Assembly (NCBI RefSeq): GCF_001428385.1
Contig: NZ_LMSK01000003.1
Location: 124,001 to 188,000 of the forward strand
DNA: 64,000 nt
Direction: 5' to 3'
Origin: Rhodanobacter sp. Soil772
GTDB lineage: Bacteria > Pseudomonadota > Gammaproteobacteria > Xanthomonadales > Rhodanobacteraceae
A program made the position numbers and the translations under genes. Position 1 is the stretch's first letter; the number at the start of each line of letters is the position of its first letter. The notes below the pieces were generated by a model, which did not search any database, was not told the DNA's origin, and saw only the letters and a program-made list of their open reading frames with translations. Positions 1,802-14,588 of the stretch are shown here, piece after piece.

Positions 1802-2164
1802 TTAGGCGGCGCGCAGGGCGGTCAGCGCCGCGGCCAGCTGCCGGGTGTCGTAGGGTTTCTGCAGGACGGTTTCGTTGCGCCATATCTCCGGGATGTCCTC
1901 GCCGCCGTAGCCGGAGGAAAACACGAAGGGTATGCCGCGACGGCGCAACACCACGGCCACGGGGAAACTCTGTTCGCCGGCCAGGTTGATGTCGAGGATC
2001 GCCAGGTCGATCGATGCGAACTCGGCCAGTTCCATGCATTTGGCCAGCCGCGCGCCCTTGATCACGTGGTAGCCCGAGGCGCTGAGGCGATCTTCCAGCA
2101 TCATCGCCAGCATCATCTCGTCTTCGGCGAGCAGGATGCAGGGCAGGTTGCTGTGGATGGTCAT
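1802..2164 (-). CDS. Single-domain response regulator (receiver only)
   Basis: A 120-residue protein made only of a CheY-like receiver domain with no output domain. It has the acidic pair (AEDE, near residue 14), the phospho-acceptor Asp in LAILDINL near residue 60, and the conserved Lys in LQKPY near residue 103. Its ATG overlaps the TGA of the large HWE histidine kinase upstream (ATGA at 2161-2164), so the two are translationally coupled and the kinase is the obvious phosphodonor. Stand-alone receivers next to HWE kinases commonly act as phosphate sinks or partners in general stress or light signalling. The output here is not visible. Confidence 0.9.
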   Translation of the reverse strand: MTIHSNLPCILLAEDEMMLAMMLEDRLSASGYHVIKGARLAKCMELAEFASIDLAILDINLAGEQSFPVAVVLRRRGIPFVFSSGYGGEDIPEIWRNETVLQKPYDTRQLAAALTALRAA

Positions 2165-5100
2165 CGGGAAACTGCCTCGTCCAGTGGTACATCGATGGTG
2201 CAGGTGACGCCGTCGGGCGGAAAGGCGAGCGATACCTCACCATCCAGTTCATACGGAATGCCTTCGTCGATCAGGCGTGAACCGAAACCGCGGCGGGTGG
2301 GCGGTTCAACCAGGGGGCCTCCGGTTTCCGTCCACTGCAGCAGCAGCCACGGACGGTGGTCCTTCACGCGTGTCGCCCAGGTGACGGTGACCTGGCCTTC
2401 GGGCACCGACAGCGAGCCGTACTTGCCGGCATTGGTGGCCAGCTCGTGCAGGGCCATGCTCAGCGCCAGCGCCTGCTTCGGCGGTAGATTGAGTCCGTTG
2501 CCCTGCAGGCGCACCCGCGCATCGTTCACGCGCGTGTCGCTGTCCTGCCGGTATGGCGCCAGTTCGTTGTTGATGATGCCGGCCAGCGGCGCGCCGAGCC
2601 ATGCGTCCTGCGCCAGCAGGTTGTGCGTATGCGACAGCGCCAGCAGCCGCGACAGGAAGCTTTCCGTGAAGGCCGGCAGATCCGCCGCGTTGGCGATGGT
2701 CTGGTGGGCGATCGCCTGCACCGTGGCCAGGGTGTTCTTCACCCGATGGTTGAGTTCGGCCATCATCATTTCCGTATGCCGCGCCGCGCGCACGCGCTCG
2801 GTCACGTCGCGCGCGATCAGCTTGCCGGCGAACATCGCGCCGTCGTGGTCGCACACCGGCGAGTAGCTGATCGCCAACGGCACCGACTCGCCGTCCGGGC
2901 GCACCCAGGTCATGTCGAATTCGGCCAGCCGAGTGGGCCGCTCGTGGCTGACGAAGAACTTCCTGGTCTCCTCGGATGGCTCGGGCGGCAGCAACATGTT
3001 CAACGGCTGGCCGACCACCTGCTCGGCGGACAGGCCGAAGATGCGTTCGGCACTGGCGTTCCAGCTGGTGATCCGCTCATCCAGCGCAAAGCCGAAGATG
3101 GCGTCGCGCGAAGAGTTCACGATCGCCGCCAGGCGGGCGTGCTCGTTGTTCAACTGCTGGCTCTCGGTGATGTCGACGAAGGTCAGCACCACGCCGTCGA
3201 CGACATTGTCGAACGTCAGGTAGGGGCGCATGCGCAGCAGGAAGGTCGGCGCGTCGCCGGTCCCGCGCAACATGCGCTCGGTGACCGTCATGTCGTGCAG
3301 CACCTGCGCCACGTCATTTTCCAGTTCCGGGTAGTTGATGCGCGGCGAGATCTCGGTGATCGGGCGGCCCTTGTCGCCGTCACGCAGGTGGAACAGCTCG
3401 GTCATCATCGGCGTGTAGCTGCGGATGTACAGCTCGCGGTCGAGGAAGATGGTCGCGATATGCGTGCTGTCGAGCAGGTTGCGGATGTCGTTGTTGAGCC
3501 GGTTCAGCGCTTCGTTCTTGCTGTTGAGCTCGGCGTTGACGATCTGCAGCTCCTCGTTGATCGACTGCATTTCCTCGGTGGAGGTTTCCAGCTCCTCGTT
3601 GGCGGATTGCAATTCCTCGTTGACCGACTGGTATTCCTCATTCGCCGATTTCAGCTCCTCGCTGGCCGTTTCGTGCAGGTCGATCGCGGCATGCAGCTGC
3701 ACGCGGGTTTCCCGCAGCTCGTCCTCCAGCGTATGGACGCGCGCGAGCTTGCTGCCGGGTTTGCCATCGGCGGCCGTTTCGGCCGGGCGCGGCGCGAGTT
3801 CGAGCTCATGGAAGGCGATCACGCACATCTCGACCTTGCCACTGTCATCAGCCAGCGGCTCCGCGATCAGCCGCAACGACCGCTCCTGTCCGTTGAGCAG
3901 GAAGGTCAGCTCCTCGCGGATCACCCGCCCGCCGCTGGCGAAGGCCTGCAGCGCGGCGGCGCGCACGACGCCACGCAGGGGTTTGTCGAGCAGCTGGAAC
4001 AGGTTGAGGCTGGCTGCGCCGGTCGATGGCGCCAGGTAACGCCCGGTGTCGCCGCCGAAGCGCAGCACGTCGTGGCTGGCGTTGATCACCACGTAGGCCG
4101 GCGACCATGGCTCCAGCGCCTGGCGCGCACGCTGGTCGATCGGGTCCTCGGCCTGCCGCGGCGTGGCGTATTCGGCACTGTTGAAAGGGCGAAGCTGCAT
4201 GCTGACGAAATCCCGTGGGCGTGTGTGTGCATCGTCGCGGCGCACGTACAGCCGCTGCTTCTTGTCCAGTTCGGTGAACAGGCGCGCGTTGCGGGCCAGT
4301 CGTTCCGATGGGCCCAGCAGCAGGAAGCCGCCGGGTCGCAACGCGTAGTGGAACGACTGCACCAGCCGTTCCTGCAGGTCGTTGTCGAGGTAGATCAGCA
4401 GATTGCGGCAGGAGACCAGATCCATCCGCGAAAACGGCGGGTCCTTGATCACGCTGTGCGGCGAGAAGACGCACATCTCGCGGATCTGCTTGACCACGCA
4501 CCAGTCGTCGCGATCCTTGCTGAACCAGCGCTCCAGGCGCTCGGGCGAAATGCCGTTCAACGGCGCGCGGTAACGCCCGGCGCGGGCACGGGCGATCGCC
4601 TGGTCGTCGATGTCGGTGGCGAAGATCTTCACCTTCAGGCCGCGTTGCGAACCCATCGCCTCGCGCAGCAGGATCGCGATGGAATAGGCCTCCTCGCCGG
4701 TGGCGCAGCCGGGCACCCAGACCCGCAGCACGTCGTCGCTGGCCCGGTCGGCCAGCAGCGACGGGATCGCGATGGTGCGCAGTGCCTCGAACGCGACCGG
4801 GTCGCGGAAGAACTCGGTGACTCCGATCAGGAACTCGCGGAACAGCAACTCGTGTTCGTTCGGATACTGGCGCAGGTGGTCGATGTAATCCGCGACGGTC
4901 TCGGCCTGCACCACCAGCATGCGCCGCTGGATCCGCCGCATCAGGGTCTTTTCCTTGTACTGGCTGAAGTCGTGGCCGACTTCGGCATGCAGCAGTTCGC
5001 AGATGGTTTTCAGGTGCGCCGCCACGTCGCCGCGCACGCCATCGGAACCCTTCTTCTGCTGCGCGGCGTGCATCTGCTTCTGGTAGGCGAGCAGCCGTGC

Positions 5101-5724
5101 CGGCATGTCGGACACCGGCATGACGGCGTCGACCAGCCCGGTGGCCACCGCATTGGCCGGCATGCCGGTCATCGCTTCGTGGTCGAAACCGGATTGCGCC
5201 AGCGCCAGCCCGCCGTGATCCTTTACCGCGCGCAGGCCTTGCGCACCGTCGTTGCCGGTGCCGGCCAGCACCACGCATACCGCGCAGTCGCCCTGGTCCT
5301 CGGCCAGCGACGTGAAGAACGTATTGATCGGCCAGCGATGCTCGCGCGGCGGCGCCGGCTTGCATACCTGCAGCACGCCGTCGGCGATGGTCAGGGTGGT
5401 ATTCGGCGGAATCACATAGACATGCCGCGCTTCGACGCGCATGCCATGGGTCGCCTCGAGCACCGGCATGCTGGTGCTGCGGCCAACCAGCTCGGCCAGC
5501 AGGCTGTTGTGATCGGGCGCCAGATGCTGCACCAGCACGAAGGCCAGCTCGCCATCCACCGGCATGTGCGCGAAGAACGCCTTGAACGCTTCCAGCCCGC
5601 CGGCCGAGGCGCCGATGCCGACGATCATGGTGCTGACTGGTGGCGGCTTGCGAAGCTTTGCCGATGAGCCACCCTTGCCGGCGGTCGCGGCGGGGGTGGG
5701 CACGGGCTTCAGATACGAGGGCAT
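2161..5724 (-). CDS. CheB-CheR-PAS-HWE histidine kinase fusion
   Basis: A 1187-residue cytoplasmic signalling protein without membrane segments. Domains in order: CheB-type methylesterase (about 33-215) with an intact triad Ser40 (GASAGG), His67 (LVQHL) and Asp159 (GTGNDGA); CheR-type SAM methyltransferase (about 230-490, motif VPGCATGEEAYS); a Glu-rich coiled coil (about 640-740); two PAS domains (about 750-980); and an HWE-family kinase. The kinase has phospho-His near 993 (ELNHRVKNTLATVQ), the N-box His near 1093 (LHELATNAGKYG) and the WxE motif (WTE, near 1131), the marks of the HWE class. The ATG at 5724 was chosen because longer readings overlap the neighbouring peptidase gene. There is no MCP receptor or che operon nearby, so its methylation substrate is unknown. 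Confidence 0.92.
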   Translation of the reverse strand: MPSYLKPVPTPAATAGKGGSSAKLRKPPPVSTMIVGIGASAGGLEAFKAFFAHMPVDGELAFVLVQHLAPDHNSLLAELVGRSTSMPVLEATHGMRVEARHVYVIPPNTTLTIADGVLQVCKPAPPREHRWPINTFFTSLAEDQGDCAVCVVLAGTGNDGAQGLRAVKDHGGLALAQSGFDHEAMTGMPANAVATGLVDAVMPVSDMPARLLAYQKQMHAAQQKKGSDGVRGDVAAHLKTICELLHAEVGHDFSQYKEKTLMRRIQRRMLVVQAETVADYIDHLRQYPNEHELLFREFLIGVTEFFRDPVAFEALRTIAIPSLLADRASDDVLRVWVPGCATGEEAYSIAILLREAMGSQRGLKVKIFATDIDDQAIARARAGRYRAPLNGISPERLERWFSKDRDDWCVVKQIREMCVFSPHSVIKDPPFSRMDLVSCRNLLIYLDNDLQERLVQSFHYALRPGGFLLLGPSERLARNARLFTELDKKQRLYVRRDDAHTRPRDFVSMQLRPFNSAEYATPRQAEDPIDQRARQALEPWSPAYVVINASHDVLRFGGDTGRYLAPSTGAASLNLFQLLDKPLRGVVRAAALQAFASGGRVIREELTFLLNGQERSLRLIAEPLADDSGKVEMCVIAFHELELAPRPAETAADGKPGSKLARVHTLEDELRETRVQLHAAIDLHETASEELKSANEEYQSVNEELQSANEELETSTEEMQSINEELQIVNAELNSKNEALNRLNNDIRNLLDSTHIATIFLDRELYIRSYTPMMTELFHLRDGDKGRPITEISPRINYPELENDVAQVLHDMTVTERMLRGTGDAPTFLLRMRPYLTFDNVVDGVVLTFVDITESQQLNNEHARLAAIVNSSRDAIFGFALDERITSWNASAERIFGLSAEQVVGQPLNMLLPPEPSEETRKFFVSHERPTRLAEFDMTWVRPDGESVPLAISYSPVCDHDGAMFAGKLIARDVTERVRAARHTEMMMAELNHRVKNTLATVQAIAHQTIANAADLPAFTESFLSRLLALSHTHNLLAQDAWLGAPLAGIINNELAPYRQDSDTRVNDARVRLQGNGLNLPPKQALALSMALHELATNAGKYGSLSVPEGQVTVTWATRVKDHRPWLLLQWTETGGPLVEPPTRRGFGSRLIDEGIPYELDGEVSLAFPPDGVTCTIDVPLDEAVSR

Positions 5725-5812
5725 GCGGGGCAGCCTGAAATCCAGGCAGAACCCGGATAAGGCGGCAGCATAGCGTGCCTGCCGTTCACCTCGGGTGATT
5801 GCCCGCAGGCAA

Positions 5813-6475
5813 TCAGCGCGCCAGCAGATCCTCGTGGAACGCGCCGAACGGTTCCGTCGGATGCGCAATCTGGATTTCCAGTATCCACAACCCGCTCGAC
5901 GGCGACGCTTCCAGGTTGCCGAGGTCGCCGCCCTGGTGGATCGAGTGCGGGAAGTCGCTGACCCGGTGCCCCTTGATCGCGTGATTGAAGCGCCAGCCCA
6001 TCGCCTCGGCGCGTTCGCCGGCAAACGCATACAGCGCCTGGCCGCTCAGTCCTTGCGAACGCCATGCCGCGGCCACTTCGCCGAACAGCGCGCGTGCGGC
6101 GTCCGCGCAGGCCTGCCGCTGCGGCGCGTGACCGACCACGAAGGTGTCGCCCACATCGCCTTCGTGGCCGTCGAACACCAGGCCGAGGTCGACGAAGTAG
6201 CTGTCGTTCTCGCCCAGCCGCACGTTCGGATCGGAGCGTTGCCGATACGTCTTGAGGGTATTCGCGCCGATGCGGATCAGCACCGGATGCCACAGCCGCT
6301 CGTAGCCCAGCTCGCGGAACACGTCCAGCGCCGCGGCCTTCGCCTCGTCTTCGCTGATGCCCGGGAGCATGCACGCGCGGATGCCGTGCAGCGCGGCCCA
6401 GGTTTTTTCGCGGGCGTGTTGCATCCGCGCAGGATCGAAACGTTGTCCGACAGCTTCGCGCGGGGGAGGCGTCAT
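5813..6475 (-). CDS. M24 family metallopeptidase-like protein
   Basis: A 220-residue protein with the pita-bread fold signature of methionine aminopeptidase/prolidase-like M24 proteins. Candidate metal ligands are present in order: Asp in FVDLGLVFDG, Asp in GDVGDTF, His in FPHSIHQGG, Glu in ILEIQIA and Glu in FHEDLL. It is shorter than typical aminopeptidase P and has no N-terminal extra domain. The ATG at 6475 lies 14 bases after the stop of the DUF1304 gene, so the two may be co-transcribed. Longer readings to 6802 only cover that gene out of frame. The substrate is unknown. Confidence 0.8.
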   Translation of the reverse strand: MTPPPREAVGQRFDPARMQHAREKTWAALHGIRACMLPGISEDEAKAAALDVFRELGYERLWHPVLIRIGANTLKTYRQRSDPNVRLGENDSYFVDLGLVFDGHEGDVGDTFVVGHAPQRQACADAARALFGEVAAAWRSQGLSGQALYAFAGERAEAMGWRFNHAIKGHRVSDFPHSIHQGGDLGNLEASPSSGLWILEIQIAHPTEPFGAFHEDLLAR

Positions 6476-8936: not shown

Positions 8937-9380
8937 CCGATTACGTTAGCAGGACCGGCATGAAGCGGCGATGGCTGCGATGTGGTGGGGCGGCGGCGCT
9001 GAGGCCGCCTTTCTCCCTCCCTGATTGCAGGGGAGGTTTCGATTTGCTGCCGATGGCGCCTTGCAAGTTCAGCCAGGAAACGCCCGCGCCAGCCAGTCCG
9101 GCACCGGGATGCCTTTCCCGCGCAGGAAGGCCGGGTTGAACGGCTTGACCTGGTGGCGCGTGCCGGCGCGAAGTTCCCGGGGGCGAGCAGAACAGCTCCT
9201 GCTGCTCGCCGGCGTCGCGGTGGAAGCGGGTCGGGCCTTCGACGGAGTCGAGGGTGAAGTCGGGGCGTCGTTGCCCGGTTGCAGGCTCGTGGCAGTCTCC
9301 GTGGCGAATGCCTTGATGCGTCAAGCTTGGCTCCATGCCACTTGGCGACAAATGACTTGATCGAATAACCATATATACGC
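8937..9380. other. Intergenic stretch with no confident gene
   Basis: No convincing gene here. On the minus strand one reading frame ends with a protein-like tail (QVKPFNPAFLRGKG, stop near 9071), but it cannot be extended upstream without changing frame, so it could be a decayed gene end or chance. A small inverted repeat of the CCTCCCTG/CAGGGGAGG kind sits at 9016-9036 and has a relative at 26927-26949. Confidence 0.4.
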
Positions 9381-9381
9381 C

Positions 9382-9399
9382 TAGACGTTTAGACGTCTA
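9382..9399 (+). promoter_or_regulatory. MetJ-like operator (two tandem met boxes)
   Basis: Two adjacent eight-base units, AGACGTTT (9383-9390) and AGACGTCT (9391-9398), match the AGACGTCT met box bound by the MetJ repressor with SAM in enteric bacteria. MetJ operators need at least two tandem boxes, as seen here. The site abuts the -35 hexamer of the metX promoter. No metJ gene is in the window, so another methionine repressor may use the same motif. Confidence 0.65.
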
Positions 9400-9428
9400 T
9401 TGACAGGATGTCGTGAAGCATTCACTAT
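9400..9428 (+). promoter_or_regulatory. Promoter of the metX-metB-hom operon
   Basis: A perfect TTGACA -35 hexamer (9400-9405) is followed after 17 bases by CACTAT (9423-9428), a weak -10. Transcription would then start near 9435, exactly where the riboswitch begins. The MetJ-like boxes touch the -35 element, which fits repression by promoter occlusion. Confidence 0.6.
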
Positions 9429-9436
9429 CCGCTCCA

Positions 9437-9548
9437 CTCATCGAGACCGGCTGAGGGACAGGCCCTTTGAAGCCGGGGCAACCTGCGGAGCGTTTCCGCC
9501 ACGGTGCCAACTCCTGCGGAGGTGCTTCGGCATCCACCGGAAGATGGG
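9437..9548 (+). promoter_or_regulatory. SAM-I (S-box) type riboswitch
   Basis: The leader carries the S-box core in order. P1 is closed by CTCATC (9437-9442) and GATGGG (9543-9548). The GAGGGA, GGCCC and TGA elements follow (about 9452-9470). P2 is CCGGC/GCCGG and is followed by GGGCAACC. P3 is a GCGGA/TCCGC hairpin, the GGTGCCAACTCC signature follows, and P4 is a GGTGC-TTCG-GCATC hairpin. The aptamer binds S-adenosylmethionine and reports methionine sufficiency. Its position between the promoter and the metX start, ahead of three methionine genes, supports the call. A GC-rich hairpin at about 9564-9579 lies downstream but has no U-run, so control by translation initiation is more likely than by intrinsic termination. 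Confidence 0.88.
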
Positions 9549-9595
9549 CGTCATCCGGCTTGCGGCGGTCTGCCGCCGAATCCGGGGTTGGCGAC

Positions 9596-9632
9596 CTTTC
9601 CGGTCCTTCGCAGGGCGATGCCGACCGGAGAG
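9596..9632 (+). promoter_or_regulatory. Hairpin sequestering the metX ribosome binding site
   Basis: CTTTCCGGTC (9596-9605) can pair over ten positions (one G-U) with GACCGGAGAG (9623-9632), which contains the GGAG Shine-Dalgarno of metX. When formed, the start at 9639 would be masked. This is a plausible expression platform for the SAM riboswitch just upstream. The coupling between the two is inferred and was not folded computationally. Confidence 0.6.
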
Positions 9633-9638
9633 AGTTGC

Positions 9639-10661
9639 ATGACGTTCCTGCCCGAAACCCGTTGCACCGAAGCCAGCCAGGCCGCCTTCGCCGTTCTTCC
9701 CGAACCGCGCGTGCGGCTTACCGCCCAGCGCAGCACACGCCGGCTGCAGCTCAACCCGAAGTACGGCAGCGGCCCGCGCGAGGTCGAGGTGAGCTACCTG
9801 TGGTGCGGCGCGGCGGGCGCGCCCACCGTGATCGTGCAGGGCGGCATCTCGGCCGATCGCGACGTCACCGCGCTGGACGGCGATGCCGCGCCGGGCTGGT
9901 GGCAGGCGCTGGTCGGCAGCGGCGCGGCGGTCGACCTGGAGCGCTGGCGCGTGCTGGCGATCGACTGGCTGACCCCGGACCGGCTCGGCGCCGGCTCGGT
10001 CTCCAGCGAGGACCAGGCCGACGCGCTGGCCGCGCTGCTGGGCGCGCTGGGCATCGCGCAGGTGCATGCCTTCATCGGTTCGTCCTACGGCGCGATGGTG
10101 GCGCTGGCGTTCGCCGCGCGGCATCCGCGCAGCGTCGAGCGCCTGCTGCTGCTGGCCGGCGCGCACCGGCCGCACCCGCTCAGCACCGCGCAGCGCAGCG
10201 TGCAGCGCGGCATCGTGCGGCTGGGCCAGGCCAGCGGCCGGGCCGACGAGGCGTTGGCATTGGCGCGCCAGCTGGCGATCACCACCTATCGCGGCAGCGC
10301 CGAGTTCGGCCGGCGTTTCGCCGGCGGCCCGGAGTGGCGCGAGGAACGCTTCCATTTCCCGGTCGAGGACTACCTGGCGCACCAGGGCCGCCGCTTCGTC
10401 GAGCGCTTCGATGCGGATCGCTTCCTCGCGCTGTCCGAGTCGATCGACCTGCATGACGTGCAGCCCGAGCGGATTCCCACCCCGACCACGCTGATCGGTT
10501 TCCCCTCCGACCGGCTGGTACCGCTGGCCGACCTGTGCGAGCTGCAGCGCCGCCTGCATGGCCCGGCCACGCTGGAAGTGGTCGAGTCGCCGTACGGCCA
10601 CGACGCTTTCCTGAAAGAACCCGAACAGCTCGCGCCGTTGCTGCGCGAAGCGCTGGCCTGA
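9639..10661 (+). CDS. metX: Homoserine O-acyltransferase, MetX-type alpha/beta hydrolase
   Basis: A 340-residue alpha/beta-hydrolase-fold enzyme that acylates homoserine, the first committed methionine step. The nucleophile elbow GSSYGAM lies near residue 150. The catalytic Asp is in GFPSDRLVP near 292 and the His in YGHDAF near 324. Whether the donor is acetyl-CoA or succinyl-CoA cannot be read with certainty; the adjacent metB suggests O-succinylhomoserine. The ATG at 9639 follows a GGAG site; the in-frame reading from 9504 would translate the riboswitch and is rejected. It is first in the metX-metB-hom operon, and its leader carries the SAM-responsive elements. Confidence 0.88.
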   Translation: MTFLPETRCTEASQAAFAVLPEPRVRLTAQRSTRRLQLNPKYGSGPREVEVSYLWCGAAGAPTVIVQGGISADRDVTALDGDAAPGWWQALVGSGAAVDLERWRVLAIDWLTPDRLGAGSVSSEDQADALAALLGALGIAQVHAFIGSSYGAMVALAFAARHPRSVERLLLLAGAHRPHPLSTAQRSVQRGIVRLGQASGRADEALALARQLAITTYRGSAEFGRRFAGGPEWREERFHFPVEDYLAHQGRRFVERFDADRFLALSESIDLHDVQPERIPTPTTLIGFPSDRLVPLADLCELQRRLHGPATLEVVESPYGHDAFLKEPEQLAPLLREALA

Positions 10662-10699: not shown

Positions 10700-11887
10700 A
10701 TGACCGAGCCCGCCCCCTGTACCCGCGCCGTGCGCGCCGGGATCGAGAGCGACACCCAGCACGGCGCCGTGGTGCCCGCGCTGCACCTGTCGACCAACTA
10801 CAGCTTCGCGGGTTTCGGCCGCAAGCGCGCGTACGACTACTCGCGCAGCGGCAACCCCACCCGCGACCTGCTCGGCGATGCACTGGCGGAACTGGAGCAG
10901 GGCGCCGGCGCGGTGGTGACCTCCAGCGGCATGTCGGCGGTGGCGCTGGCCTTGGAGCTGGTGCCGGCCGGCGCCACCGTGCTGGCGGCGCACGACTGCT
11001 ACGGCGGCACCTGGCGGCTGCTCGACGCATGGGCGAAGAAGGGCCGCTTCCAGGTCGAGTTCGCCGACCTCACCGATAGCGTGGCGCTGGCCGCCGGCCT
11101 GGCGAAGAAGCCGGCGCTGGTGTGGGTGGAAACGCCGTCGAACCCGCTGCTGCGGATCACCGATATCCGCCACGTGGCGCAGGCTGCGCATGCGGTGGGC
11201 GCCTTGCTGGTGGTCGACAACACCTTCCTGTCGCCGGCGCTGCAGCAGCCGTTGCTGCTCGGCGCGGATGTGGTGGTGCACTCCACCACCAAGTACATCA
11301 ACGGCCACAGCGACGTGGTCGGCGGCGCGGCGGTGGCGCGCGACGCCGCGGTATTCGATCAGCTGAAATGGTGGGCCAACTGCAACGGCCTCACCGGCGC
11401 ACCGTTCGACAGCTACCTTACCCTGCGCGGCCTGCGCACGCTCAGCGTGCGGCTGCGCCAGCACCAGGAAAACGCCGCGCGTATCGCCGAACAACTCGAC
11501 GCGCATGCGGCCGTGCGCAAGGTGTATTACCCCGGCTTGGCCAGCCATCCTGGCCATGCGCTGGCGGCGCGGCAGCAGCAGGGTTTCGGCGCGATGTTGA
11601 GCTTCGAGCTGGACGGCGACGTGGCGCAGATCGAGGCATTCGTCGACGGCCTTCAATACTTCTCGCTGGCCGAGTCGCTGGGCGGGGTGGAAAGCCTGAT
11701 TGCGCACCCGGCGAGCATGACCCACGCCTCGATGGCACCGGAGGCGCGCCGCACCGCTGGCATCGCCGACAGCCTGCTGCGCGTGTCGGTAGGCATCGAG
11801 GACGGCGACGACCTGCTGCGCGATCTCGACGCGGCGCTGGTCCGTGCCGCGGCCGCAGGGACGTCCAAACGCCGGGTGCTCGCATGA
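10700..11887 (+). CDS. metB: Cystathionine gamma-synthase / O-acylhomoserine sulfhydrylase
   Basis: A 395-residue PLP-dependent transsulfuration enzyme that condenses activated homoserine with cysteine (or sulfide). Family marks are YDYSRSGNPTRD near residue 50, the TSSGMSA phosphate-binding loop near 75, VVDNTFLSP near 172 and the PLP lysine in HSTTKYINGHSD near 198. The C-terminal SLGGVESLIAHPASMTH motif is also typical. A GGAGATC site precedes the ATG at 10700. Its TGA overlaps the ATG of the homoserine dehydrogenase gene. Choosing between MetB and MetZ activity needs biochemistry. Confidence 0.92.
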   Translation: MTEPAPCTRAVRAGIESDTQHGAVVPALHLSTNYSFAGFGRKRAYDYSRSGNPTRDLLGDALAELEQGAGAVVTSSGMSAVALALELVPAGATVLAAHDCYGGTWRLLDAWAKKGRFQVEFADLTDSVALAAGLAKKPALVWVETPSNPLLRITDIRHVAQAAHAVGALLVVDNTFLSPALQQPLLLGADVVVHSTTKYINGHSDVVGGAAVARDAAVFDQLKWWANCNGLTGAPFDSYLTLRGLRTLSVRLRQHQENAARIAEQLDAHAAVRKVYYPGLASHPGHALAARQQQGFGAMLSFELDGDVAQIEAFVDGLQYFSLAESLGGVESLIAHPASMTHASMAPEARRTAGIADSLLRVSVGIEDGDDLLRDLDAALVRAAAAGTSKRRVLA

Positions 11888-12966
11888 GCGCGGTGCTGGC
11901 CGAGCGCGCGGCGAGCGCCAGGAGCGAAGCCTCCACCACCATCGCGATCGTGCTGCTCGGCACCGGCGTGGTCGGTGGTGCGCTGCTGAAATTGCTCAAC
12001 ACCTCTGCCGCAGGTTCGCTGCGGCTGGTCGGCGCGGCGAACTCGCGCCGCCAGCAGACCGATCCGGTCAGCCTGTCCCAGCGTAACCTGCGCGAGCAGC
12101 TGAACCAGCACGGTGCCCCGCGCGACAACGCCAGCCTGCTCGCGGCGCTGGACGCCAGCGCAGCGACGGCGAAGGTGATCATCGACGCCACCGCCAGCGC
12201 GGCCTTGGCGTCGCGCCACGCCGAGTGGCTGGCGCGCGGCTACCACGTGGTCACCGCGAACAAGGCGCTGGCCGGCGGCGACTTGTCCGGCTGGCGTGCG
12301 TTGCAGGCCGCGCTGGCGCATGGTGCGCGCTACGGCGACTCGGCCACCGTCGGCGCCGGCTTGCCGGTACTGTCCACGCTGCGCCGCCTGCGCACTTGCG
12401 GCGACGGCCTGCTTACCCTGGAAGGCGTGTTTTCCGGTTCGCTGTCGTGGCTGTTCAACCAGTACGACGGCGGCCGCCCGTTCTCCGAGCTGCTGCGCGA
12501 GGCGCGCCAGTTCGGCTATACCGAACCCGACCCGCGCTCGGACCTGTCCGGCGAGGACGTGGCGCGCAAGCTGCTGATCATCGCCCGCAACGCCGGTTTC
12601 GCCTTGGGCACTGACGAGGTGCAGGTGGACGGCCTGGTGCCCGAGGCGCTGCGCGGGCTGAGCACCGAAGCGTTCCTGGCGCGGCTGGAGGAACTCGACG
12701 CGCCGCTGGCCGCCCGCCATGCGCAGGCCAGCTCGCGTGGCTGCGTGCTGCGCTTCCTGGCGCGGCTCAACCAGCGCGGACATGCCCGCGTCGGCCTGGT
12801 CGAAGTGCCGCTCACCCATCCCGCCGCGCGGCTGTACGGCACCGACAACCAGTTCGCGCTCACCACCACCCGTTACCACGCCCAGCCGCTGGTGATCCAG
12901 GGGCCGGGCGCGGGGCCGGAGGTGACCGCGCAGGCGCTGCTGGGGGATGTGCTGGCGCTGGCTTGA
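11884..12966 (+). CDS. hom: Homoserine dehydrogenase lacking an ACT domain
   Basis: A 360-residue NAD(P)-dependent enzyme that reduces aspartate semialdehyde to homoserine. The nucleotide loop GTGVVGG is near residue 27, the catalytic-site Lys is in VVTANKALAGG near 125, and the substrate region GVFSGSLSWLFNQYDGG is near 180. TEPDPRSDLSGEDVARKLL follows. These motifs match the dehydrogenase half of bifunctional aspartokinase-homoserine dehydrogenases (ThrA/MetL) rather than the ACT-bearing monofunctional Hom. With no ACT domain, threonine feedback is unlikely. Control would come from the SAM leader of this operon. It starts inside the metB stop (ATGA). Confidence 0.92.
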   Translation: MSAVLAERAASARSEASTTIAIVLLGTGVVGGALLKLLNTSAAGSLRLVGAANSRRQQTDPVSLSQRNLREQLNQHGAPRDNASLLAALDASAATAKVIIDATASAALASRHAEWLARGYHVVTANKALAGGDLSGWRALQAALAHGARYGDSATVGAGLPVLSTLRRLRTCGDGLLTLEGVFSGSLSWLFNQYDGGRPFSELLREARQFGYTEPDPRSDLSGEDVARKLLIIARNAGFALGTDEVQVDGLVPEALRGLSTEAFLARLEELDAPLAARHAQASSRGCVLRFLARLNQRGHARVGLVEVPLTHPAARLYGTDNQFALTTTRYHAQPLVIQGPGAGPEVTAQALLGDVLALA

Positions 12967-12969
12967 GCT

Positions 12970-13263
12970 TCAGGGTTTCGCGTCGATGGCGGTCGGCGGC
13001 GTGCGTGACACGATGCCCACGCGCATGCCGAACGGTGCGAACACCGCGTTGAGCGTGCGCACGGTCGGGTTGCCCTGGTCGTGCTCGAGCTGTTGCAAGG
13101 TGTTGAGCGAGATCCGGCACATGCGGGCGAACTGCTCCTGGTGCAGGCCGGTCAGTTCGGTGCGCAATCGGCGCACGGCCGCGCCGATGCTGGTGCGACC
13201 GTCCAGCAGTTCCGCCTGCAATTGGGCCAGCAGTGCCTGGCGATCGGCGAGGGCGGCGCTCAT
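12970..13263 (-). CDS. hipB: HipB-like XRE-family antitoxin/regulator
   Basis: A 97-residue protein with an XRE helix-turn-helix (about 40-92: LHQEQFARMCRISLNTLQQL, then GNPTVRTLNAVFAPFG). Proteins of this type bind and inhibit the HipA kinase and repress their own operon. The ATG at 13263 overlaps the hipA stop, so hipB is the second gene. In the classic E. coli order the antitoxin gene comes first. It converges on the methionine operon with a three-base gap. Confidence 0.85.
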   Translation of the reverse strand: MSAALADRQALLAQLQAELLDGRTSIGAAVRRLRTELTGLHQEQFARMCRISLNTLQQLEHDQGNPTVRTLNAVFAPFGMRVGIVSRTPPTAIDAKP

Positions 13264-14588
13264 GCCAGCAGCCCCCAACGGCGCAGGCGCGCATCCAGCC
13301 CGCCTAGCGCGATGCGCGGGTGATCGAACACTGCCTCCGGCAGGCCGAGGTCGCGCAGCAGGTCCGGCACCGCGCACAGTGCCGAGGCGTCCGCGCGCAA
13401 GTCGTCGAACAGCCGCTGCGGGTCGCCCCATGGCTGCAGCGTCGCGCAGGCGGCGCGCCAGTCCACCTCGCCGGCGACTTCCACCGGCGCAGGCCACTTG
13501 GTGGTGCGCGAGATGCCTTCCTCGTCCATCACCATCGGCGCCAGGTCGTAGATCGGCGCCAGCTCCAGCCGGTCGGCGTGGCGCAGCACCGCGGTGTTGC
13601 GGCCGTGGTTGTCGCTGTTGCCCAGCACCAGGTTGAGCAGGTCGCGGCGCAGATACTCGCGCAGCAGCGCCGACACGTCGCCGGCCTGGCCGGCGGCGAT
13701 CCAGGCCGAAGCCAGTGCGGCAACCGCCTGCGGATGGGTCATGTAGCTGCCGGGGCGGGTCACACCGGCCAATGAGTAGACCGATTCCACCGCGATGCGC
13801 CGCACGGCGCCGGCGACGATGGCGCGATCGAAGCGCGGCAGCCACAGGCTGGGGCGGGCCGCTTCCTCCAGCCGCATCGCGTCGCCGCCGACCGCGGCGA
13901 TGTGCAGCTTCGCCAGGGCGCGGTAATAGCAGTATTCCGCGCGCAGGATCGCCTGGTCGGTCGGCCCGCCGTTGCCGCGCGGGAACTTCACGAACCAGTG
14001 CCGGTGTGCCCGTGTGTCGTCCAGCGTCGCGTCCGGGTGCAGCAGGCCGCCGGCATCCTCGGTGAGCAGCAGCTTGGGCGCCTCGCCGCCGGCGCCGGTG
14101 GCGCCGCCGATCGCCGCGCCCTGTTCGTAGGCGTACTCCAGGAAGCGCGCGTCACGGGCCACCACTTCGGCCATCGGGAAACCGATCGATGGCCCAGGCA
14201 GTGCCTCGAACGCGGATTTGATGCGCAGGTGCCCGACCGGCGCCGGCGTGCATTGCGCCAGCAACTGCAGGTCGGTGGCGCCGGTGTCGGCCCGCACCGG
14301 CATAGCCAGGCGTTGCAGCAGGAAGCGCCGCGCCGCGCCGCTCGGTTCGATGTCGAACAGGAACGCCGGCCACTGCGGCTCGGTGCGGATGGTCCAGTCC
14401 AGCGGCAGCGTCGCGCTGACAGCTGCCGCGGTGGTCACCCCGAGCCGCTCCATGTGCGCCACGACGTAGGCGTCCAGGTAGCCCAGCGTGCAGGGGCTGG
14501 CGTGGCCGTCGGCCGGGCGCAGAAACGCCAGCTCCATGGCGTCGTGCCACTGGCCGTCCAGGTGAAGCTGCACGATGAGAGGGATCAC
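13260..14588 (-). CDS. hipA: HipA-like serine/threonine kinase toxin
   Basis: About 442 residues if started at GTG 14588. It has the HipA kinase fold: an N-terminal domain with LRIKSAFEALPG near residue 165, the nucleotide Lys in HWFVKFPRG near 217, the catalytic loop GNSDNHGRNTA near 330 and the metal-binding Asp in APIYDLAPM near 350. E. coli HipA phosphorylates glutamyl-tRNA synthetase and causes growth arrest; the target here is unknown. An ATG at 14630 is in frame, but it lies within the likely promoter and operator, so the GTG is preferred; neither start has a strong ribosome binding site. Translation runs straight into hipB. Confidence 0.85.
   Translation of the reverse strand: MIPLIVQLHLDGQWHDAMELAFLRPADGHASPCTLGYLDAYVVAHMERLGVTTAAAVSATLPLDWTIRTEPQWPAFLFDIEPSGAARRFLLQRLAMPVRADTGATDLQLLAQCTPAPVGHLRIKSAFEALPGPSIGFPMAEVVARDARFLEYAYEQGAAIGGATGAGGEAPKLLLTEDAGGLLHPDATLDDTRAHRHWFVKFPRGNGGPTDQAILRAEYCYYRALAKLHIAAVGGDAMRLEEAARPSLWLPRFDRAIVAGAVRRIAVESVYSLAGVTRPGSYMTHPQAVAALASAWIAAGQAGDVSALLREYLRRDLLNLVLGNSDNHGRNTAVLRHADRLELAPIYDLAPMVMDEEGISRTTKWPAPVEVAGEVDWRAACATLQPWGDPQRLFDDLRADASALCAVPDLLRDLGLPEAVFDHPRIALGGLDARLRRWGLLA

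Follow-up and report, generated by a model that had tools for sequence, protein, structure and literature searches.

Can a single gammaproteobacterial promoter answer to S-adenosylmethionine (SAM) through both a repressor protein and an RNA switch? A SAM-sensing DNA-binding protein and an RNA switch usually occur in different kinds of bacteria. In the 64,000-nucleotide stretch of Rhodanobacter sp. Soil772 analyzed here (hereafter the window), however, the methionine operon metX–metB–hom is preceded by predicted met boxes of the MetJ type, a SAM-I (S-box) aptamer and a hairpin that sequesters the metX Shine–Dalgarno (SD) sequence (Table 1), which an earlier note, made from the letters alone, had read as three stacked SAM-responsive layers. 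Our analysis points to two: we consider it likely that MetJ acting on transcription and the SAM-I element acting on translation together form a two-level SAM feedback brake on this operon, and that this arrangement is characteristic of Rhodanobacteraceae.

Much of the structural description in that note was borne out. Pfam and NCBIfam matches confirmed the identity of the operon, and a search of the leader with the Rfam covariance model recovered the full SAM-I aptamer that had been claimed, which is also the sole S-box found in the genome by covariance-model search. The ten-pair hairpin said to hide the metX SD is present just ahead of the start codon, and no terminator-like site was found in the metX leader; an SD held inside a hairpin in a leader without a terminator is also a feature of SAM-I_Xcc, the corresponding switch of Xanthomonas campestris. 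The stability of the leader as a whole is ordinary for its composition (z −1.41). The tandem met boxes end one base short of a consensus −35, and of 86 Rhodanobacteraceae leaders, 85 have a TTGACR hexamer close to their start. The proposal that the aptamer begins at the predicted transcription start held only in part: the spacing would fit a start near 9435, but the −10 is poor, and a consensus promoter scan of the metX leader region reported no promoter, missing CACTAT.

Table 1. Features of the metX–metB–hom promoter, leader and operon, in window coordinates
Feature	Position	Strand	Details
Possible degenerate third met box ATACGCCT	9375..9382	+	ATACGCCTAGACGTTT: 3 mismatches to the tandem pair
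Predicted MetJ operator of two met boxes in tandem	9383..9398	+	AGACGTTT (9383–9390) and AGACGTCT (9391–9398); 1 mismatch to the perfect pair AGACGTCTAGACGTCT
−35 element TTGACA	9400..9405	+	exact consensus; one A separates it from the met boxes
Putative weak −10 CACTAT	9423..9428	+	17-base spacer to the −35, read from the sequence
SAM-I (S-box) riboswitch aptamer	9435..9550	+	RF00162, 81 bits (gathering 44.4), whole model 1–108 aligned
Aptamer strand CCTGCG, 5′ side of P4	9513..9518	+	complementary to loop 9609–9614; the two pair in the unconstrained minimum-energy fold
Anti-SD hairpin arm CTTTCCGGTC	9596..9605	+	ten pairs with 9623–9632, one of them G–U; duplex −17.4 kcal/mol
Conserved hairpin loop	9609..9620	+	CGCAGG (9609–9614) and CGATG (9616–9620), enriched in family leaders over shuffles
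SD hairpin arm GACCGGAGAG	9623..9632	+	pairs with 9596–9605
metX	9639..10661	+	NF006449, homoserine O-succinyltransferase MetX, 360.2 bits (cut-off 296)
metB	10700..11887	+	TIGR02080, cystathionine gamma-synthase, 599.1 bits (cut-off 504.55); PF01053
hom	11884..12966	+	PF00742 and PF03447 above cut-off

Two neighbors of the operon can be recorded in passing. A HipA-like gene (PF07804; 13260–14630) and the adjoining HTH_3 gene (12970–13845), both on the minus strand, converge on the 3′ end of hom and look like a HipBA-type toxin–antitoxin pair. Farther upstream, a single long minus-strand gene (2161–6030) combines CheB, CheR, several PAS domains and an HWE histidine kinase.

The metX promoter carries what is expected of a MetJ operator, namely at least two tandem 8-bp met boxes at a methionine gene. 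Across the 3.57 Mb genome, a match to the met-box pair with at most one mismatch occurs in two places only, the metX promoter and the region upstream of a TonB-dependent receptor gene, against a chance expectation of about 0.04 by arithmetic for random sequence; at up to three mismatches there are 25 sites, compared with 6 for a reversed control pattern. Many of the sites with two or three mismatches are GC-rich, and chance or GC-rich coding matches would account for many of these by composition, but not for the metX and TonB-receptor sites. Moreover, metJ, for which the earlier note had proposed a genome search, was found about 41 kb before the window, its product scoring above both the Pfam (PF01340, 120.7 against 25 bits) and NCBIfam equivalog (NF003622, 124.6 against 110 bits) cut-offs.

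This MetJ has a conserved core, which matches E. coli MetJ at 51 of 73 residues; in the family proteins that were read, the core retains 51–56 identical residues out of 72–73. The profile match ends at position 89 of 97, after which the protein continues into a Lys/Ala-rich, histone-H1-like tail with a weak match to HC2 (PF07382) that stays below the cut-off (37.5 against 40 bits). Such tails, 41–310 residues long, were present in all 20 Rhodanobacteraceae MetJ proteins that were read, the remaining family genomes being judged by open-frame length only. They are absent from 11 short MetJ proteins of another family in the order and from the 3 other-family proteins sampled in the class (frames of 112–118 aa). 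In the open-licence literature we found no description of a tailed MetJ, including one of MetJ with a histone H1-like extension, and nothing on MetJ in Luteibacter or Dyella. For one Rhodanobacter strain, PMC12146267, which calls MetJ a putative repressor, reports an increase in MetJ protein alongside a decrease in four methionine enzymes, a correlation only.

To what extent is the combination shared? In a sample of 298 genomes of the order, MetJ was detected in 116 and the S-box in 241, the latter count having used stricter filters that may miss weak matches. The two occur together in all 100 sampled Rhodanobacteraceae genomes and in one other, G104. Tandem met boxes with at most three mismatches precede the S-box in 100 of 100 of the same Rhodanobacteraceae genomes, a level reached by 3 of 1720 mononucleotide shuffles of the family upstream regions, and in none of 46 other-family leaders, where the best matches have 6 to 9 mismatches; both G104 leaders are among the 46, and 6 further leaders that could not be oriented by motif were left out. 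In the class sample of 370 genomes, MetJ was found in 5 and the S-box in 10, with both in just two, each of them Rhodanobacteraceae. All 20 loci checked with the composite pattern of met boxes and S-box sit in genomes with MetJ, these 20 having been taken from at least 80 named loci that were all picked for already matching that pattern. The initial expectation that MetJ runs throughout the order was ruled out: it is confined to Rhodanobacteraceae and parts of two other families.

Thus, the comparison of genomes supports the joint presence of MetJ operator and S-box at a single promoter as a family-wide trait of Rhodanobacteraceae. The earlier note had singled out precisely this pairing in a gammaproteobacterium as noteworthy, and in that it is sustained, the trait being family-wide and metJ present. 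S-boxes on the metX–metB–hom operon have already been characterized in Xanthomonas (PMC7270179, PMC6230763), and the unexpected partner is therefore MetJ. We found no description of MetJ and SAM-I on one promoter in the open-licence literature.

Two cases from outside the family are worth recording. In family f9 (e.g., G035, G064 and G104), an untailed MetJ is present in 11 genomes and the S-box in 8, with both in G104 only. A bin labelled Candidatus Eremiobacteraeota bacterium (L250) has the composite met-box and S-box pattern along with a MetJ gene, and is likely mislabelled or mixed.

MetJ probably controls further genes, as judged from the placement of met boxes: its own and that of a TonB-dependent receptor, for which no NCBIfam model scored above cut-off. 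The near-perfect site at the receptor belongs to a run of met boxes in this genome, and among the corresponding Rhodanobacter loci met boxes with at most 4 mismatches lie about 88–95 bases before the aligned start in 16 of 25, which are the ones whose query match begins at residue 1 or 2; the other 9 have at least 6 mismatches. Upstream of metJ, boxes with at most 5 mismatches were found at −172 to −191 in 17 of 20 loci, the three without them all coming from one genus. The site of this genome is itself poor, with 5 mismatches, and 90 of 1720 shuffled regions of similar length reach that level; hence, at metJ the weight lies on the shared position, not on any single score. The same upstream region contains a perfect inverted repeat, TTGATTTCA-TGAC-TGAAATCAA (L001:1416–1440), directly before a TTGACA.

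The slot occupied by the met boxes is filled differently next door. In the neighboring family f2, presumably Xanthomonadaceae, all 24 leaders carry a 24-bp palindrome like ATCGCTTTATCCGGATAAAGCGAT (at most 6 mismatches) that runs into the −35, giving GATTGACR in 24 of 24. All 86 Rhodanobacteraceae leaders depart from it by at least 10 mismatches, and the 13 remaining other-family leaders divide into three with 5 to 7 mismatches and ten with at least 11; across the genome of our strain, no palindrome of this type was found with at most 3 mismatches. The SamR motif is described as a 24-bp palindrome of the form ATC-10 nt-GAT (PMC4239095), and the f2 palindrome, matched to this verbal description only, fits it well enough to be termed SamR-like.

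A fuller reading, which we advance tentatively and judge somewhat short of probable, joins this exchange of operators to a family-specific switch. It holds that the tailed MetJ occupies the exact promoter slot used next door by a SamR-type site, before the same SAM-I element, yielding a fixed transcription-plus-translation SAM gate, and that the SD hairpin has a loop that imitates strands of the aptamer (CGATG that of P1, CGCAGG that of P4) and would capture their partners when SAM is absent. Among the 86 family leaders, CGCAGG is present in 60 (2.0 expected from shuffles) and CGATG in 61 (3.1 expected), compared with 3 of 29 other-family leaders for CGCAGG (0.4 expected). In an alignment of 45 of 81 distinct segments, the loop is better conserved than the outer arm of the hairpin. 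When the window leader is folded without constraints, CGATG (9616–9620) pairs with the P1 strand CATCG (9439–9443) and, nested with this pairing, CTTCGCAGGG (9606–9615) pairs with the P4 strand TCCTGCGGAG (9512–9521); the SD hairpin is then absent, yet the SD arm is base-paired to early codons of metX. The competing duplexes are close in strength (−19.8 against −17.4 kcal/mol), and given this and the pairing of the loop with the P1 and P4 strands, loop capture is to be taken as a testable hypothesis rather than as a result.

The remaining folding evidence is mixed. Complementarity of the platform to P1, assessed per leader, does not exceed chance within Rhodanobacteraceae (5 of 85 at p<0.05) despite the enrichment of the CGATG 5-mer; that to P4 was seen in 49 of 85 leaders, an approximate figure, as CCTGC of the P3 region was counted as P4 in some genera. 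The f2 platform carries instead CTCGATGG, complementary to P1, which occurs in 11 of 29 other-family leaders and 0 of 86 from Rhodanobacteraceae. An equilibrium ON/OFF switch, sought by enforcing P1, did not emerge: the SD unpaired fraction over the 86 leaders is 0.20 with P1 enforced and 0.27 without, the SD being mostly paired in both, and in our window 0.00 and 0.01, respectively. Enforcing P1 lowers the unpaired fraction by more than 0.2 in 12 of the 86 leaders and raises it in 1; the same folding covered 29 of 37 other-family leaders. SAM-free opening of the SD is thus not well predicted by such models. Covariation of the hairpin is weak: with arms swapped between genera in the 76 of 86 leaders that have a recognizable loop, a leader's own arms were better in 54, four genera showing the opposite, and were better than 95% of shuffles in 39. 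In the leaders of G141 and G180 (L049 and L084), the P1 strand is CATCCAGA instead of CATCGAGA, and the G180 platform has CTGGA in place of the usual CGATG or TCGAT; this could compensate for the altered P1 strand, although G141 shows no such change.

For this Rhodanobacter, we infer from its sequence and from homologs that each layer responds to SAM, and on that basis the brake could operate as follows. At high SAM, SAM-loaded tailed MetJ would bind the met-box pair (about −52 to −37) and obstruct RNA polymerase at the adjoining −35, lowering transcription; in transcripts that escape, SAM would bind the aptamer and, going by the Xanthomonas homolog, the SD would be kept closed in the downstream hairpin. 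At low SAM, MetJ would come off the DNA, and we hypothesize that the freed P1 and P4 strands would pair with the CGATG and CGCAGG of the SD-hairpin loop, dismantling the hairpin.

Several other accounts were weighed against this brake. The riboswitch alone might regulate, with the met boxes a relic or bound weakly or not at all by MetJ, and the promoter constitutive as in Xanthomonas, where it is reported as unresponsive to methionine whereas the 5′UTR responds (PMC6230763, PMC7270179); the weak −10 CACTAT agrees with this. However, PMC6230763 reports metJ to be missing from Xanthomonas, which is hence no guide to Rhodanobacteraceae, and its unresponsive promoter speaks neither for nor against a MetJ layer in our strain. 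As the boxes keep their position in all 100 family genomes and are found again upstream of metJ and of the TonB-receptor gene, we regard regulation by RNA alone as unlikely. It is also conceivable that the tailed MetJ is by now mainly a nucleoid-type DNA-binding protein that has lost SAM-dependent repression and uses the boxes as loading sites, a suggestion prompted by the tail found in every family protein read and by its sub-threshold resemblance to HC2. The well-conserved core, the passing of the MetJ equivalog cut-off and the location of the boxes before methionine and uptake genes all argue against such a loss, which we find quite improbable.

The three independent layers of the earlier note, with the SD hairpin counted as one of them, are barely credible. 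The hairpin is admittedly a stable local stem (−17.4 kcal/mol) that forms in silico in the window with P1 enforced; but the tools found no SAM pocket in it, its loop has complements among the strands of the aptamer, and the homologous Xanthomonas hairpin is an expression platform (PMC7270179). The SD hairpin is best read as the output of the riboswitch, which leaves two layers, not three.

Bacteria are usually regarded as relying on either a protein or an RNA to sense SAM; on this two-level reading, a single promoter combines the two in every sampled member of a family. The neighboring family, which keeps the RNA sensor with another operator in the slot, offers a natural experiment on two sensors for one metabolite, and the exchange of operators also bears on how transcription factors replace one another without disturbing the RNA layer. 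The range of MetJ also grows by a family whose order had yielded none in one published survey (4 genomes of that order), and an unusual form of the protein, with a basic tail, is described.

Among known systems, the closest is SAM-I_Xcc, which likewise lies in the long 5′UTR of a homologous metX(metA)–metB–hom operon, with an SD hairpin and no terminator (PMC7270179, PMC6230763). As described in PMC7270179, it is a translational switch, SAM repressing a reporter by about 98%, and it binds SAM but not SAH. It differs in its promoter, unresponsive and in a background reported to lack metJ (PMC6230763); the introduction of PMC7270179 disagrees on the latter point, stating that the E. coli MetR/MetJ system seems conserved in many Gram-negatives including Xanthomonas. 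Other differences are the lack of a MetJ operator in the neighboring-family leaders that we take to represent the Xanthomonas lineage, the different switch strands in the platform, and the sensing of initiator tRNA shown for the Xanthomonas leader, in which the SD is still closed without SAM and is opened by the uncharged tRNA (PMC7270179). The closed SD is a puzzle common to both systems, as folding here leaves most of the SD paired with and without enforced P1.

The MetJ regulon of enteric and related bacteria provides the likeness on the protein side, with a repressor of the same SAM-dependent family, tandem 8-bp met boxes and targets that in some groups include metB, metX and metJ (PMC4239095); it differs in that the MetJ proteins sampled outside Rhodanobacteraceae, 3 in the class and 11 in the order, lack the basic tail. 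In the cited passages of the same survey, MetJ was found in 62 of 199 proteobacterial genomes and in none of 4 Xanthomonadales, and the riboswitch scan did not include SAM-I (PMC4239095). The SamR regulon of Xanthomonadales likewise has a repressor site in this slot, ahead of the shared −35 and S-box, but with an ArsR-type regulator and a 24-bp palindrome there in contrast to MetJ and met boxes here (PMC4239095). Finally, hom-metXC of Oceanicaulis alexandrii also joins a protein and an RNA regulator, SahR and a SAM_alpha riboswitch, on one methionine operon, although both the riboswitch class and the repressor family are different and the case is named for one genome (PMC4239095).
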